Positions 42,052 through 48,510 of a stretch of 64,000 bases of DNA are shown piece by piece. The notes below the pieces were generated by a model. It saw only the letters and a list, made by a program, of their open reading frames with translations. It did no database searches and had not been told where the DNA came from. Origin of the DNA: Thermophilibacter immobilis (GTDB lineage: Bacteria; Actinomycetota; Coriobacteriia; Coriobacteriales; Atopobiaceae); the NCBI RefSeq assembly GCF_015277515.1, contig NZ_CP063767.1, positions 806,001 through 870,000 on the forward strand, read 5' to 3'. Position numbers and translations under genes: made by a program. The number at the start of each line of letters is the position of its first letter. Positions within the stretch are counted from its first letter, which is position 1.

Positions 42052-43212
42052 ATGACCATCGCACCAACCACTAGGACCACCCCTAAGCCCATCAAGATCA
42101 TCCTGCTCACGGGCTACCTCGGCGCCGGCAAGACGACGCTGCTCAACCACATCCTCTCCAACGAGCAGGGCATCCGGGCGGCGGTTCTCGTCAACGACAT
42201 CGGCGAGATCAACGTCGACGCCGACCTCATAGCCAGGGGCGGCCTGTCCGAGATGGGCGGCGACCTCATCCCCATGACCAACGGCTGCCTGTGCTGCACC
42301 CTGTCCGATGACCTTTCTCGCCAGCTGGGCCAGTTCGCCGCTGCGTGCGCCTGCGACTACATTTTCATCGAGGCCTCGGGCATCTGCGAGCCCATCCCCA
42401 TCGCCTACACCATCTCGAGCTACTGCGACCAAACCAAGAACGCCAGCCGCGCCCCGCTCGATCTGGACAACATCGTGGCCGTGGTGGATTGCGCGCGCAT
42501 GTGGGACGAGTTCAACGGCGGCAAGGACCTTCTCGCCGACGACATCGACGAGGACGACCTGCAGAGCCTGCTCATCCAGCAGATCGAGTTCTGCACCACC
42601 GTCGTGCTCAACAAGGTCGACCGCGTCACGCGCGCGCAGGTCGACGAGCTCCGGGAGATCATCCGCAGCCTGCAGTCCGATGCCGTCATCGTCGAGGCCA
42701 CCCAGGGCGACGTGCCCATGGACCAGCTCCTGGACACCGATCGCTTCGACTTCGAGAGGGCGTATAACTCCGCCTCCTGGCTCGACGCGATGGCCCACCC
42801 CGAGGAGCACGAGGACCCCGAGGTGCTGGAGTACGGCATCTCAACGTTCGTCTACGAGCGGCGTCGCCCCTTTGACATCGACAAGTTCAGCGACTTCGTG
42901 ACCACGTGGCCCCAGGAGGTCATTCGCGCCAAGGGCCAGCTCTGGGTGGCGCAGGACCCGGACATGGGCTTCCTGTTCGAGCAGGCCGGTCGTCAGACCA
43001 CGCTCTCGGAGCGGGGGCTGTTCATCGACTCCGCGCCCGAGGACACCAAGCGCCAGCTCATCGCCGACAATCCCGAGGTCATGGGCGACTGGGACGACGT
43101 CTGCGGCGACCGCGAGACCCGCGTCTGCTTCATCGGGCGGCACATGGACACCGAGGCCCTCGCGGACGGCCTCGACGCCTGCCTCACCGAGTGGGTGCCG
43201 GAGACGGAGTAG
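42052..43212 (+). CDS. CobW/COG0523 family GTP-dependent metallochaperone
   Basis: This 386-residue G3E-family GTPase has P-loop GYLGAGKTTLLNHIL, the metal-binding CxCC motif in NGCLCCTL, and the guanine-specificity NKVD. A C-terminal CobW_C domain follows. COG0523 proteins insert or traffic zinc or other metals. The metal is not evident here; no zinc-uptake (Zur) gene is adjacent. ATG at 42052 follows AAAGGCAGC. The attenuated ABC operon begins about 100 bases downstream with its own promoter. Confidence 0.85.
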   Translation: MTIAPTTRTTPKPIKIILLTGYLGAGKTTLLNHILSNEQGIRAAVLVNDIGEINVDADLIARGGLSEMGGDLIPMTNGCLCCTLSDDLSRQLGQFAAACACDYIFIEASGICEPIPIAYTISSYCDQTKNASRAPLDLDNIVAVVDCARMWDEFNGGKDLLADDIDEDDLQSLLIQQIEFCTTVVLNKVDRVTRAQVDELREIIRSLQSDAVIVEATQGDVPMDQLLDTDRFDFERAYNSASWLDAMAHPEEHEDPEVLEYGISTFVYERRRPFDIDKFSDFVTTWPQEVIRAKGQLWVAQDPDMGFLFEQAGRQTTLSERGLFIDSAPEDTKRQLIADNPEVMGDWDDVCGDRETRVCFIGRHMDTEALADGLDACLTEWVPETE

Positions 43213-43309
43213 GGGGCGTGGCGAGAGCTGCGTTGACGCGCGAAGTTCCTCTCATCGGAATGAATACGCTGCATTCTTTTTCGGTTCCGGGGGTCTCGTA
43301 GAAAAGTCC

Positions 43310-43337
43310 TTGACAGGCCACCGGTCGCTGCTATGGT
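43310..43337 (+). promoter_or_regulatory. promoter of the attenuated ABC/M20 operon
   Basis: A perfect TTGACA at 43310 is followed after 16 bases by TATGGT, preceded by TG one base upstream (extended -10). It lies 43 bases before the leader-peptide start. Confidence 0.7.
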
Positions 43338-43380
43338 TATAAACCAAGCGCCGCGATAGGAAATAGGGGAGGGAAACGCC

Positions 43381-43509
43381 ATGCAGAGCAGCAACGCCAC
43401 TATGTGTACGGCAATGTGTCCGATGCGGATGCTCGGCTCCCGGGCTTTGGGCCGCGAGGGGCTTCCTGTGCGTCTTCCCCTTTCTACTGTCAAACGGGGG
43501 CAAGACTAG
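43381..43509 (+). CDS. leader peptide rich in Cys and Met (42 residues)
   Basis: This short frame lies between a strong promoter and an intrinsic terminator. It starts at ATG 43381 after GGGGAGGGAAACGCC, a clear ribosome binding site, and ends TAG at 43507. Residues 8-17 read MCTAMCPMRM, giving four Met and two Cys in ten codons. The terminator hairpin starts 32 bases after the stop. A segment right after these codons (43435-43443) is complementary to the terminator's 5' arm. This layout suggests ribosome-mediated attenuation responding to sulfur amino acids. Confidence 0.6.
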   Translation: MQSSNATMCTAMCPMRMLGSRALGREGLPVRLPLSTVKRGQD

Positions 43510-43540
43510 CTCAAGACAGCCTGCCTGTAGCGTTCATTGT

Positions 43541-43573
43541 CCGGGAGACCTCTTTGGCCTCCCGGTTTTTTAT
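43541..43573 (+). terminator. attenuator (intrinsic terminator) before the ABC operon
   Basis: CCGGGAGACC pairs with GGCCTCCCGG (one A-C mismatch) across a five-base loop, followed by six T residues. It stands between promoter and first structural gene. GGCTCCCGG at 43435-43443 can pair with its 5' arm as an alternative, which would prevent the terminator. No known riboswitch class is recognised in 43338-43540. Confidence 0.85.
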
Positions 43574-43649
43574 TGCCGGAGTGCCCTTGCGCCTCAGCGC
43601 GAGACGAGGAAACATCCGTTTCTCCCATCCACACGAAAGGAACCCTCCG

Positions 43650-44744
43650 ATGTACTCTTCCCTGCAGATCTCCCGCCGTCAGTTCCTTAAAGCCTCCAGC
43701 GTCATCGGTGCCGGTCTCGCGCTTGCGGGCTGCAGCGTTGCCTCTGACGACGGTACGGACTCCGCTGACTCCACGGCTTCCGACGCTTCCTCAACCGACG
43801 ATTCCCAGTACAAGTATGGCAAGGTGGACATTCCCGGCAAGGGAGGCTCGTTGTGCAACGCCCCCTGCTACATCGCCTACGAGAACGGATACTTCGCCGA
43901 CGCCGGCTTCGAGGTCAATCTGATCACCGCCGATACCGAGACACGCAAGATCGGCCTGAACAACGGCACCATCCCTATCGTCAACGGGGACTTCCAGTTC
44001 TTCCCCTCCATCGAGCAGGGCGTGAACATGAAGGTCGTCGACGGCCTGCACAACGGCTGCATCAAGCTCGAGGTCCTGCCTGACTCCGCGATTCAGGATG
44101 CCGAGGACGTCCGCGGTAAGAAGATCGGCATCGACGAGGTCGGAGGCACCCCGCACCAGGTCGCGCTCCTGTGGCTCGAGAACCATGGTATCTCGACGGA
44201 TCCTGCTGACGAAGAGGTCACCTTCCTACCGTACAGTGATGCGAACCTCGAGGTCGAGGCGCTCCACAACGGTGAGATCGACGTCGCGGCGCTGTGGGAC
44301 CCCGTCGCCTCCATCCAGGAGAAGTCCGGCGACCTGCGGGTGATCTGTGACATCGCCACCGATCCGGCGTTCAAGGACAAGTACTGCTGCTTCCTCTTTG
44401 GCTCGGCCACCTGGGTCGAGGAGGACCCCGAGCGTGCCGGAGCCCTCCTGCACGCCTACCACCTCTCGCAGGACTGGATTGCCAAGAACCCCGCCGAGGC
44501 GGCACAGATCATCTCCGACAAGCAGTATTCCGCCATCACCGACGTCGAACTCGCCACGGAGCTTCTCACCCACTACGAGTACCCGACCCTTGAGGAGCGC
44601 GCAGCCGGTGACCACAACTTCGTCGATGATGTGAAGTACTTCTCCGAGCAGCTCAAGCAGGTCGGCTACCTTGAGACCGATGATCCCGACGGCTTCGCGC
44701 AGAGCTCCTCCGCGGTCCTTGACACCGGCGACGAGCCTGCCTAG
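43650..44744 (+). CDS. ABC transporter substrate-binding lipoprotein (NMT1/SsuA-like)
   Basis: This 364-residue protein has a twin-arginine-like SRRQFLKASS, a hydrophobic stretch and lipobox LAGC, then an acidic Ser/Asp-rich linker. The fold is of the NMT1/SsuA type (nitrate, sulfonate, taurine or pyrimidine-precursor binders), with GGSLCNAPCYIAYENGYFADAG and VRGKKIGIDEVGGTPHQVAL. A paired-cysteine CNAPC near the ligand pocket is notable. The permease and ATPase follow. A sulfur-containing ligand is inferred from the leader peptide only. Confidence 0.8.
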   Translation: MYSSLQISRRQFLKASSVIGAGLALAGCSVASDDGTDSADSTASDASSTDDSQYKYGKVDIPGKGGSLCNAPCYIAYENGYFADAGFEVNLITADTETRKIGLNNGTIPIVNGDFQFFPSIEQGVNMKVVDGLHNGCIKLEVLPDSAIQDAEDVRGKKIGIDEVGGTPHQVALLWLENHGISTDPADEEVTFLPYSDANLEVEALHNGEIDVAALWDPVASIQEKSGDLRVICDIATDPAFKDKYCCFLFGSATWVEEDPERAGALLHAYHLSQDWIAKNPAEAAQIISDKQYSAITDVELATELLTHYEYPTLEERAAGDHNFVDDVKYFSEQLKQVGYLETDDPDGFAQSSSAVLDTGDEPA

Positions 44745-44755
44745 GAGGCCTCGTA

Positions 44756-45811
44756 ATGTCACAAGCTTCTACCGCATCTATCGAACAAGCCCGCTTCCAG
44801 CAGGGCGTGGAGGAAAAGGACGGCGTGCTCGTGCGTCACGTGGGTCATATCGTCTTCACACTTGCCGGCTTCCTGCTGGCGGTCGCCGCTAACGTGCTCG
44901 TACCGCAGGTCTCCTCGGTTCCCCTCGACACGTATCGGGTGGGGATCCTCCTGCTCAACCGCAACGGCCTCTATCGCATCGTGCTTTTCGCCATCGCCTT
45001 TATCTACCTGGTGTCGGGTATCGTCTCAACGCGCAACGAGACCCGGCGCCTCCACTTCGACAACAGGTCGGCTTTTCGCTTCGTGATGGGGATCGCGTTG
45101 CTCCTGTGGGACGTCTTCGGCACCAAGTACCAGCTTCTCCAGCAGCCGTTCTTCCCCGGTCCGTCGCAGGTGCTCGAATCCTTCCTCATAGAGGGTGCCT
45201 ACATCTTCTCGAACCTGCTCTACTCCCTGCGCCTCTTCAGCGTGGGATTTCTCGCCGGCGTCGTCTTCGGCGTGGGCACGGGTATCTTGATCGGCGTGTT
45301 CCCCCGCGTGTACTACTGGGTCCATCCCGTCCTCAAGATGACCGGCATCATCCCGGCCGTCGCGTGGATGCCGTTCGCCCTGACGCTGTTCCCCACGCCC
45401 TTTTCGGCGGCGGTGTTCCTGATCTCCATCAGCGCCTGGTTCCCCATAGCCTTCGGCACCGCGTCGGGCGTCATGTCAACACCTACGACCTACTTCGAGG
45501 CCGCCCGCACGCTGGGCGCGTCCAAGGCCTATCGGATCTGGCACGTCTCGGTCCCGCACGCGCTGCCCCAGATCTTCACCGGCATCACCACGGCCTGCGC
45601 TAACGCCTTCGTGATGCTCGTCATCTCCGAGATGATGGGCCAGCCCGGCGGCCTGGGCTACTACATCAACGCCGCCAAGATGTGGTCCACGTACTACAAG
45701 GTGTTCGCGGCAATCGTCATCATGGCCATCCTCTTCTCGCTCATCACGAAGCTGCTTGGTCTCATCCAGGCCAGAGCGCTGCGCTGGCAGAAGGGGGTCA
45801 TCGGGTCATGA
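44756..45811 (+). CDS. ABC transporter permease (SsuC/TauC-like)
   Basis: This 351-residue permease has an N-terminal part with two or three extra helices (residues 25-110). A BPD_transp_1 domain follows, with the coupling loop YFEAARTLGASKAYRIWHV in part and ISEMMGQPGGLGYYI. SsuC-type proteins are usually about 260 residues, so the N-terminal 90 residues are an extension. AGGAGGCC precedes the ATG. The stop overlaps the ATPase start (ATGA). Confidence 0.87.
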   Translation: MSQASTASIEQARFQQGVEEKDGVLVRHVGHIVFTLAGFLLAVAANVLVPQVSSVPLDTYRVGILLLNRNGLYRIVLFAIAFIYLVSGIVSTRNETRRLHFDNRSAFRFVMGIALLLWDVFGTKYQLLQQPFFPGPSQVLESFLIEGAYIFSNLLYSLRLFSVGFLAGVVFGVGTGILIGVFPRVYYWVHPVLKMTGIIPAVAWMPFALTLFPTPFSAAVFLISISAWFPIAFGTASGVMSTPTTYFEAARTLGASKAYRIWHVSVPHALPQIFTGITTACANAFVMLVISEMMGQPGGLGYYINAAKMWSTYYKVFAAIVIMAILFSLITKLLGLIQARALRWQKGVIGS

Positions 45812-46629
45812 GCACCAAAGCGAGCATTCTGAGCGTCGAGCACGTGGGCAGGGTCTACGACGACGAGGAGGACAAACGGACCGTCGCGCTGGAAGACGTC
45901 TCCTTCGGCGTCGCGGAGGGGGAGTTCGTCTCTCTCATCGGCCACTCCGGCTGCGGCAAGACAACGCTCCTGCGTCTCATCGCCGGCCTCGACGACCCCC
46001 AGGAGGGCAGGCTCCTGCTCGACGGCGAGCCCATCGCGGGCTCGAGTCCCGAGCGCGGCTTCGTCTTCCAGCAGGGGGGCCTCTTCCCGTGGCTGACCGT
46101 AAGCCAGAACATCGCCTTTGGCCTCAAGGCTCGGGGCACCTACGACACGCGCAGCGCCGATGTGGACGAGTACCTTCGCCTCATTGGTCTGGACGGGTTC
46201 GGCGACTCGTACCCGCACCAGATCAGTGGCGGCATGGCCCAACGCGTCGCCATTGCACGCAGCCTCATCAACAACCCGCGCGTCCTGCTCCTCGACGAGC
46301 CGATGGGGGCTCTGGACTCCTTCACCCGCGCCGACCTCCAGGACAAGCTCCTTGCTCTGCGCGAGCGCAATCACACGACGATGATCCTCGTCACGCACGA
46401 CGTGGATGAGGCCGTCTACCTGAGCGATCGAATCGTGCTCATGACCCCGCGCCCCGGTAGGGTCTCCGAGGAGATTCGGGTGGACATCGCGCGGCCCCGC
46501 GACCGCACGAGCGACGGGTTCCTGGCGCTGCGCACGAGGATCCTTGACAAGCTCCATCTGGCCGGCGTGGGAGCGGAGGCCTCGGACGCCGCCCCTGCAG
46601 ATGACGCGGGCCTCGTCGCGACACGCTAG
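45808..46629 (+). CDS. ABC transporter ATP-binding protein (SsuB/TauB-like)
   Basis: This 273-residue ATPase has Walker A GHSGCGKTTLLR, signature ISGGMAQRVAIARS and Walker B LLLDEPMGALDS, followed by the switch histidine in VTHDVDEA. ATG at 45808 overlaps the permease stop. The C-terminal 20 residues are an acidic and alanine-rich tail. It energises the importer encoded by the two genes upstream. Confidence 0.9.
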   Translation: MSTKASILSVEHVGRVYDDEEDKRTVALEDVSFGVAEGEFVSLIGHSGCGKTTLLRLIAGLDDPQEGRLLLDGEPIAGSSPERGFVFQQGGLFPWLTVSQNIAFGLKARGTYDTRSADVDEYLRLIGLDGFGDSYPHQISGGMAQRVAIARSLINNPRVLLLDEPMGALDSFTRADLQDKLLALRERNHTTMILVTHDVDEAVYLSDRIVLMTPRPGRVSEEIRVDIARPRDRTSDGFLALRTRILDKLHLAGVGAEASDAAPADDAGLVATR

Positions 46630-46720: not shown

Positions 46721-47005
46721 ATGAGTGACGCTGAGAGGGAAGCTCTCGCCGCAGAGGGGCCGGAGGGCTGTGCCAGGAGGCGGGGCAGGCACGTGAGGGC
46801 CCTGACCGTGGTCCTGGTCATCGCGGCGCTCGCGGCTGCGCTCGCGGGAGGGGCCTGGCTCTTCTCCGCGCGCGGGCGGGTCCCAGAGATCATCGAGGCG
46901 CCGCGCGCGGAGACCGTGTCCGTGGCAGACGACCCGGGGGGACAAAGCACGGCCTCGTCAGAGGGCCGACTTCCCGGTTGCTGCAGCCCTAACAACAACG
47001 TGTGA
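46721..47005 (+). CDS. small single-span membrane protein with C-terminal Cys-Cys tail
   Basis: I do not recognise this 94-residue protein. It has a charged N-terminal segment (about 27 residues, ending in RRRGRHVR), one membrane helix (about 28-48), and a hydrophilic outer part ending in LPGCCSPNNNV. The vicinal cysteines eight residues from the end suggest metal or thiol chemistry at the cell surface. It lies 91 bases after the ATPase and 61 before the M20 hydrolase, on the same strand. AGAAGGGAGC precedes the ATG. It may be an operon-specific accessory factor. Confidence 0.65.
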   Translation: MSDAEREALAAEGPEGCARRRGRHVRALTVVLVIAALAAALAGGAWLFSARGRVPEIIEAPRAETVSVADDPGGQSTASSEGRLPGCCSPNNNV

Positions 47006-48505: not shown

Positions 48506-48510
48506 TGCCA

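Follow-up and report, generated by a model that had tools for sequence, protein, structure and literature searches.

The region between positions 43310 and 43571 of the window (the whole stretch of 64,000 nucleotides of Thermophilibacter immobilis DNA that was analysed) is very probably a ribosome-mediated transcription attenuator, which senses charged Cys- and Met-tRNA and controls an operon for the import of a sulfur nutrient. An attenuator had been proposed here in an earlier note on this DNA. The reading draws on the elements and their order, on the recurrence of related Cys/Met leaders before Met/Cys genes, on a covarying long-range pairing, on the place of the switch when the leader is folded with the ribosome as a block, and on the finding that no Rfam family covers the leader.

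From these elements we infer a mechanism in which RNA polymerase would start near 43344 and the ribosome would begin the leader at 43381. A shortage of Cys-tRNA or Met-tRNA would halt the ribosome with one of codons 8-15 in its A site and with its front edge just short of an antiterminator arm (region 2, 43435-43445), which could then pair with its partner (region 3, 43539-43550) once that is made. This antiterminator would leave the terminator without its 5' arm, so that RNA polymerase would continue into the importer genes. With both tRNAs charged, the ribosome would pass Arg16-Met17 and cover region 2, and the terminator (43541-43565) would form.

Elements of the leader region

All elements lie on the forward strand. 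A scan of about 1 kb gave a single promoter match compared to a mean of 0.1 in shuffled sequences, a sigma-70-type promoter at 43310-43337 (TTGACA-16-TATGGT) with 10 of 12 matches and a TG before the -10 box. By eye, a palindrome (TGGTT-ATA-AACCA, 43334-43346) extends over the -10 box and the start region and is a possible operator. A ribosome binding site (GGGGAGGG, 43366-43373) stands seven bases before the ATG of a leader frame of 42 codons in the list of open reading frames (MQSSNATMCTAMCPMRMLGSRALGREGLPVRLPLSTVKRGQD, 43381-43509, stop codon TAG at 43507-43509). Codons 8-17 of this frame read Met8 Cys9 Thr10 Ala11 Met12 Cys13 Pro14 Met15 Arg16 Met17. Block folding and sister leaders mark codons 8-15 (43402-43425, with Met8, Cys9, Met12, Cys13 and Met15) as the regulatory codons, and the family alignment together with block folding marks Arg16-Met17 (CGGATG, 43426-43431) as the place of the switch. 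Among the 555 short frames of the whole window (12-75 amino acids, counted from the first start), only two have at least five Cys/Met per 12 codons with at least two Cys, and the leader alone reaches six Cys/Met in 12 codons.

Regions 2 and 3 were identified by complementarity, partner swap and covariation. The core of region 2 (CTCCCGG, 43437-43443) pairs perfectly with 43541-43547, and by eye the pairing is longer, joining 43435-43445 to 43539-43550 with one bulged A. Region 3 overlaps the 5' arm of an intrinsic terminator at 43541-43571, which has arms at 43541-43550 and 43556-43565 followed by TTTTTT. A stock terminator scan of 43000-44000 reported no terminator, probably because of an A-C mismatch in the stem of this hairpin. 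The earlier note had described the promoter, the 42-codon frame with its ribosome binding site and the peptide MCTAMCPMRM at codons 8-17, a segment at 43435-43443 complementary to the terminator arm and a terminator at 43541, in this order before the first gene; each of these is present and the order holds, the complementary segment being longer than had been said. The folding energy of the whole leader was ordinary compared to shuffles (z -1.36), as was that of 43420-43572 (z -1.29).

Related leaders in the same order

A comparison of the leader frame across related genomes, proposed in the earlier note, did find related leaders that carry Cys/Met codons. In a search for MetY within the window's own order, 214 of 247 genomes matched at 1e-80, and among the matches listed 70 upstream regions of MetY were read, 11 of which carry a family leader (L187, L190, L204-L206, L208, L215-L217, L219 and L238, with L187 and L206 weak) and most of which do not. 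Own-family leaders such as MTTTTMMMCMRMLSSRAPQESAG resemble TAMCPMRMLGSRALGREG of the window. They share a plan in which a Cys/Met run is followed, mostly, by R-M-x-x-S-R-A, and in which CTCCCGRGC pairs with a downstream CGGGAG; the DNA common to them is CGAATGCnnnnCTCCCGRGC. Searched with the pattern MGNATGNNNNNCTCCCGNGC, 81 of 395 genomes of the order gave matches, many of them by chance. By a rule blind to Cys/Met, 12 of 44 distinct matches examined were leader-like, and these had on average 3.33 Cys/Met in the eight codons before the motif versus 0.59 in the 32 others, a comparison in which the strict rule worked against the claim by placing the likely leaders L278, L279 and L283 among the others. 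After removal of the window and of leaders first found by their Cys/Met density, the seven left had 2.57 Cys/Met (P 2.8e-4).

All 17 tabulated leaders, six of which were first seen through their Cys/Met density, have Cys or Met in at least one of the positions -14, -17 and -20 relative to CTC(C/T)CG, and 12 of the 17 have Cys there; in the window leader, Cys is at -20 and Met is at -14. The switch reads CGAATG in the other 16 tabulated leaders and CGGATG in the window, which thus uses a different Arg codon. The CGGGAG partner starts 65-121 bases after the start of the motif (93-101 in 12 of 16). Five leaders (L238, L254, L275, L298 and L300) have Met and no Cys before the switch; since several sister leaders are without Cys, starvation for Met is as likely a signal as starvation for Cys. 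At nine of the 22 loci scanned, region 3 forms the 5' arm of a clear intrinsic terminator (at L275 by eye), and some of the family members lacking one may work otherwise.

At gathering scores, no Rfam family covers the leader in the window or at 20 loci, where the matches were confined to tRNAs, a lysine riboswitch at 48509 and a separate FMN riboswitch at L303; the ligand-binding RNA that the earlier note had set against its own reading did not appear. As a probe for the leader family, the pattern ATGTGYNNNNNNATGTGYNNNATG was not useful, as it matched one of 140 genomes of the window's own family, the window alone. A looser form matched 24 of 296 genomes of the phylum, and the matches, all but six of which were examined, were the C-terminus of a long protein or looked like chance matches or long frames. 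Seven of them (L117-L123, family f2) are the C-terminus, TMCGKMCAMR, of a long protein that we take to be ThiC, and their likeness to TMCTAMCPMR of the window is taken as coincidence.

Covariation of the long-range pairing

The pairing of regions 2 and 3 was analysed in an alignment of 16 leaders (A1), from which L258, a near copy of L257, as well as L187, L206 and L217 were omitted. In the 12-pair helix, 91.1% of cells are standard pairs and 12 cells have both sides changed, and the covariation score is 0.254 versus 0.159 in shuffles; none of 500 shuffles equalled any of these three values. The count of further pair types (15) was reached by one of 500 shuffles, and the number of pairs altered on both sides (five) by 35 of 500. 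When the helix was slid out of register, 20-56% was paired. Five of the six core pairs are invariant and therefore uninformative, and one side of the core had been set in advance by the search pattern, so the evidence from covariation sits in the outer six pairs. In a partner-swap test, again with L258 omitted as a near copy of L257, leaders formed a mean of 10.2 contiguous pairs with their own partners versus 9.0 with permuted ones, and the observed sum was equalled by 107 of 20000 permutations. The sequence between regions 2 and 3 is without conservation across the family leaders. A mutually exclusive antiterminator is kept by covariation in the leader family.

Position of the ribosome and the switch

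How a stalled ribosome would expose or hide 43435-43443 had been left unanswered in the earlier note, which had called for folding with a ribosome block, and this folding gives a rough answer: 43437-43443 is predicted to be free while the A site holds one of codons 8-15, and to be covered once the ribosome is at Met17 or slightly past it. For the window with the whole terminator and only the RNA ahead of the ribosome folded, the predicted probability of the antiterminator is 0.56-0.89 at A-site codons 6-16, except at Met12 (0.26). From codon 18 to 28 the same folding yields the terminator at 0.87-0.89 and the antiterminator at 0. In partial transcripts, all 16 family leaders pair the terminator arm with a probability of 0.85-1.00 when the A site holds the codon preceding the conserved Arg, and in 15 of them the value falls to 0.17-0.38 at the Met after it, L204 staying at about 1.0; the drop at Met is partly mechanical, as the ribosome covers the arm, and at some later codons the value rises again via other pairings. 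What is informative is the near-complete pairing beforehand and the presence of Cys/Met codons just before the drop. With the ribosome at Cys13 of the window leader, the terminator arm was paired equally well in four of 200 dinucleotide shuffles, and the real drop was equalled by five of 200.

When the RNA behind the ribosome was allowed to fold as well, the antiterminator reached just 0.47 at Cys9 and 0.53 at Cys13, a stall at Met8 gave the terminator at 0.91, and ribosomes at codons 30-39 gave the antiterminator in 9 of 10 cases. The ribosome-free transcript of the window is predicted to favour the antiterminator (0.84); that of the trp attenuator behaves differently. In partial window transcripts with the ribosome at codons 21-28, the terminator arm finds a second partner inside the leader (0.34-0.92), which is absent once the full terminator is included in the fold. 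In this model, the position of the stall would select between antiterminator and terminator, more weakly if upstream RNA refolds.

The predicted regulon

A family model, R1, was built from 16 sequences and searched against 110 genomes with E-values that are rough; 13 genomes matched at E 0.1. Two training members were recovered in the window's genome, namely the window site itself (43395-43583, 73.9 bits, 6.5e-14) and a second site at 1125683-1125814 (5.2e-10) before a permease whose best family, below cut-off, is a cystine ABC transporter permease. The window leader has the Cys/Met run, the motif, the paired arms and the short frame of the family, with CGG instead of CGA.

Outside the training set, the motif, a short frame and a complementary segment were found before CysK (L297, 1.9e-9), a MetQ-type protein (L298, 3.7e-4), a MetE-type synthase (L300, 0.003), MetY (L302, 0.019) and MetN (L303, 0.022). 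The arms pair over 14 contiguous bases in L303, 11 in L298, which has a clear terminator, and eight in L302, where the partner sequence is another (TCCCGGGA). In the L298 leader, MTMAMSMYMPSSRAPRLARVFAA, Tyr replaces Arg, Met codons lie at -20, -14 and -8, and Cys is absent. The leader before CysK is rich in Cys, and those before MetQ (L298) and MetE (L300) have Met without Cys before the switch, as sensing of codons would predict, in few cases. Other R1 matches were set aside: L299 is another inverted repeat, and L301 and L304-L306 show no convincing leader.

A probable third leader of the window's genome, MKKQHVYNALICMGLFMRRPEVA, lies before MetY (L308, at 1264, minus strand), and it is graded just probable because its ribosome binding site is weak. 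Its arms, GCCCGAGG and CCTCGGGC, differ from those of the family and form 11 contiguous pairs; it has Cys at -23, Met at -20 and -8, Phe instead of Arg, and a drop at codons 16-19. Before the second MetY-like gene of this genome (L309) no such leader was seen by eye. The genes identified behind family leaders are MetY, CysK, MetN, MetQ, MetE, a cystine-type importer and the importer of the window.

The importer operon and its likely cargo

Behind the leader, the forward strand encodes a substrate-binding protein (SBP) with a TAT-type signal (43650-44744), which is NMT1-like and SsuA-like (TIGR01728) below cut-off, followed, according to family scans, by an ABC permease (44756-45811) and an ABC ATPase (45808-46629). 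A 94-amino-acid frame (46721-47005) is probably part of the operon; it matched no Pfam or NCBIfam family and has, by eye, one hydrophobic stretch and a C-terminal GCCSPNNNV. An M20 amidohydrolase (TIGR01891, 47067-48257) is probably the last gene. Just upstream of the leader promoter stands a CobW/COG0523-type GTPase (42052-43209), and behind the importer operon a lysine riboswitch (RF00168, 48509-48682, 66.4 bits) precedes lysA.

The solved structure closest to the binding protein by sequence is 3qsl, a 'putative exported protein'. As an SAO importer the proteins scored 55, 106 and 259 bits for SaoX, SaoP and SaoA, below the NCBIfam cut-offs of 300, 295 and 360. Among the 30 further genomes of the genus, no orthologue of the importer was found at 1e-30. 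The closest orthologues come from rumen MAGs that carry the label Ruminococcus or Clostridiales, with best-segment identities of 57-60% (a partial match, L039, has 68%), and no such leader was found within 700 bases before their SBP (104 bases for L034; L039 excluded). The leader therefore belongs to the regulon rather than to the window's transporter. Upstream regions of SBP homologues, scanned on both strands, showed a leader at the L042 and L043 sites only. Homologous importers are encoded beside sulfur genes, in the order MetY, permease, ATPase, SBP at L046 and PatB C-S lyase, SBP, permease, ATPase, CysK at L043, and at L033 and L032 MetY-like genes, named by likeness, precede the SBP. Judged by these gene neighbourhoods, a sulfur compound is the likely cargo of the window's importer.

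Alternative readings

The probabilities given to the different explanations overlap, as a rival may be right about one part of the mechanism. The conserved Arg-Met could mean that the leader peptide itself acts: with the RNA part unchanged, a nascent peptide that ends in R-M-x-x-S-R-A, aided by CGA, would arrest the ribosome as a readout of a metabolite (methionine, SAM, cysteine or sulfide) and not of tRNA charging. Among leader-like matches, 11 of 12 encode this Arg by CGA, versus 9 of 32 other pattern matches, and every one of the 17 tabulated leaders has Arg-Met at -11/-8, a feature that the search pattern had itself demanded of most. We nevertheless regard such an arrest as unlikely, since the pairing arm CTCCCGRGC imposes Ser-Arg-Ala, the peptides are otherwise highly diverse, the run is enriched in Cys/Met, the window has CGG and not CGA, and Tyr (L298) and Phe (the own MetY leader, L308) replace Arg. 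A combination, in which the fixed CGA-AUG (Arg-Met) would be more than a spacer and would serve as an active arrest site, where the nascent peptide or slow decoding of CGA would hold the ribosome with the antiterminator arm half covered, and in which the leader would report a sulfur metabolite in addition to tRNA charging, is rather unlikely, a little more so because L298 and L308 keep Met and not Arg.

Several family members, such as L190, L205, L253 and L254, have no clear intrinsic terminator, and neither do Mycobacterium cys leaders in the accessible text of PMC1262725, which would suit a leader that acts via Rho or via translation of the first gene. For the window this is quite improbable, given its strong hairpin followed by six T and an antiterminator that uses the 5' arm of the terminator; L298, too, has a clear terminator. 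A riboswitch or T-box overlapping the frame would share the terminator/antiterminator design, and the predicted structure is stable, though no more so than in shuffles; the Rfam result given above and the unconserved sequence between regions 2 and 3 make a ligand-binding RNA very improbable. Finally, the likeness of TMCGKMCAMR in L117-L123 to TMCTAMCPMR could suggest a small metal-binding Cys/Met protein or part of another protein, for example ThiC, a reading that is barely credible, since sister leaders vary the spacing of Cys, some have no Cys before the switch, and the conserved part is base pairing.

Relation to known leaders

Cys leaders are already known, and the comparable literature found, as far as its accessible text goes, describes cysteine leaders only. 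The uORFC-8-2 leader before cysS of Rhodobacterales is, in the portion of PMC8632094 available, like the window in its Cys-codon frame, its intrinsic terminator and a stall thought to lead to read-through. It belongs to Alphaproteobacteria, has tandem Cys codons inside the first stem and precedes a tRNA synthetase gene (PMC8632094), whereas the window family has a mixed Cys/Met run, an antiterminator arm after the run, and transport and biosynthesis genes. Leaders of cys operons in Actinobacteria share Cys codons, sulfur genes and the phylum with the window; unlike in the window, their Cys runs lie close to the stop codon, and the accessible text describes no Met codons and reports that no conserved terminator was found (PMC1262725). 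Polycysteine leaders of mycobacteria are described by Canestrari 2020, as cited in the available part of PMC13236596. The trp and ilv attenuators, with ilvB-II of Corynebacterium as a classical attenuator type (PMC10272879, and a summary in PMC11109978, both in excerpt), resemble the window in a leader rich in regulatory codons and in the choice between antiterminator and terminator. The window differs from these partially accessible descriptions in its Cys and Met codons, in that no separate pause hairpin was recognised, and in that ribosome-free RNA is predicted to read through. A family of mixed Cys/Met leaders was not found in the literature searched, largely its non-subscription part (including PMC2965389, PMC11109978 and PMC6429828, in their accessible text).

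The family predicts a sulfur amino acid regulon (MetY, CysK, MetE, MetN, MetQ and cystine-type and NMT1-like importers) under one kind of leader peptide, in a bacterial order for which no such description was found in the literature searched. It would join Cys and Met in one sensor, it offers a searchable geometric rule (a hungry codon 14-20 bases before CTCCCG), and it points to a class of substrate for the window's NMT1-like importer.

Cys/Met leaders in Clostridia

At L042 and L043 (Lachnospiraceae, SBP 35-36% identical to that of the window), a leader (MKEVCLSIRYICMCMYMCSYRMCRTGLQTGRLA) and a terminator precede the SBP, and the 5' arm of the terminator is complementary to bases after the Cys/Met run. 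In a pattern search of the class of genome G176, 63 of 391 genomes matched with 79 frames, five of which were leader-like: L055 (the same site as L104) before MetQ, L084 before MetN, L094 before a binding protein whose C-terminal half is MetQ-like, L161 before MetY and L169 before MetY by likeness. All five have terminators (L169 by eye). These leaders are like the window family in their Cys/Met run, their terminator and their MetY, MetN/MetQ or importer genes, and unlike it in the sequence of the arms, so that the geometry is shared and the sequence is not; R1 gave no match to them up to E 1.

At equilibrium, folds of the Clostridial leaders favour the complete terminator almost wherever the ribosome stands, so that these leaders fit only if the antiterminator forms first. 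The real pairing was equalled by 0 (L043), 15 (L055), 0 (L084), 58 (L094), 190 (L161) and 109 (L169) of 200 shuffles, and the real drop by 3, 3, 0, 5, 189 and 98, respectively, with the last Cys of the main run chosen by eye (codon 18 and not 23 in L043, 24 and not 37 in L055, 32 and not 38 in L084); L161 and L169 thus fail the drop test at the last Cys, and in L094 and L055 the pairing as such is unexceptional although the drop is steep.

By eye, repeats like CCTATTGACATAGTAGG or ACCTACCAAGTTGGTAGGT occur near the promoters of L042, L055, L094, L169 and L190; they recall Rrf2/CymR operators, so that control may also act on initiation. Past the terminator at L055 (1644), L161 (1361) and L169 (979, minus strand), a second short frame carries ..R-x-G-R-M.. 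and, by eye, CGAATG. These frames recall the motif of the own-order family, and if the arrest site were real, their Arg-Met would be related to that signal.
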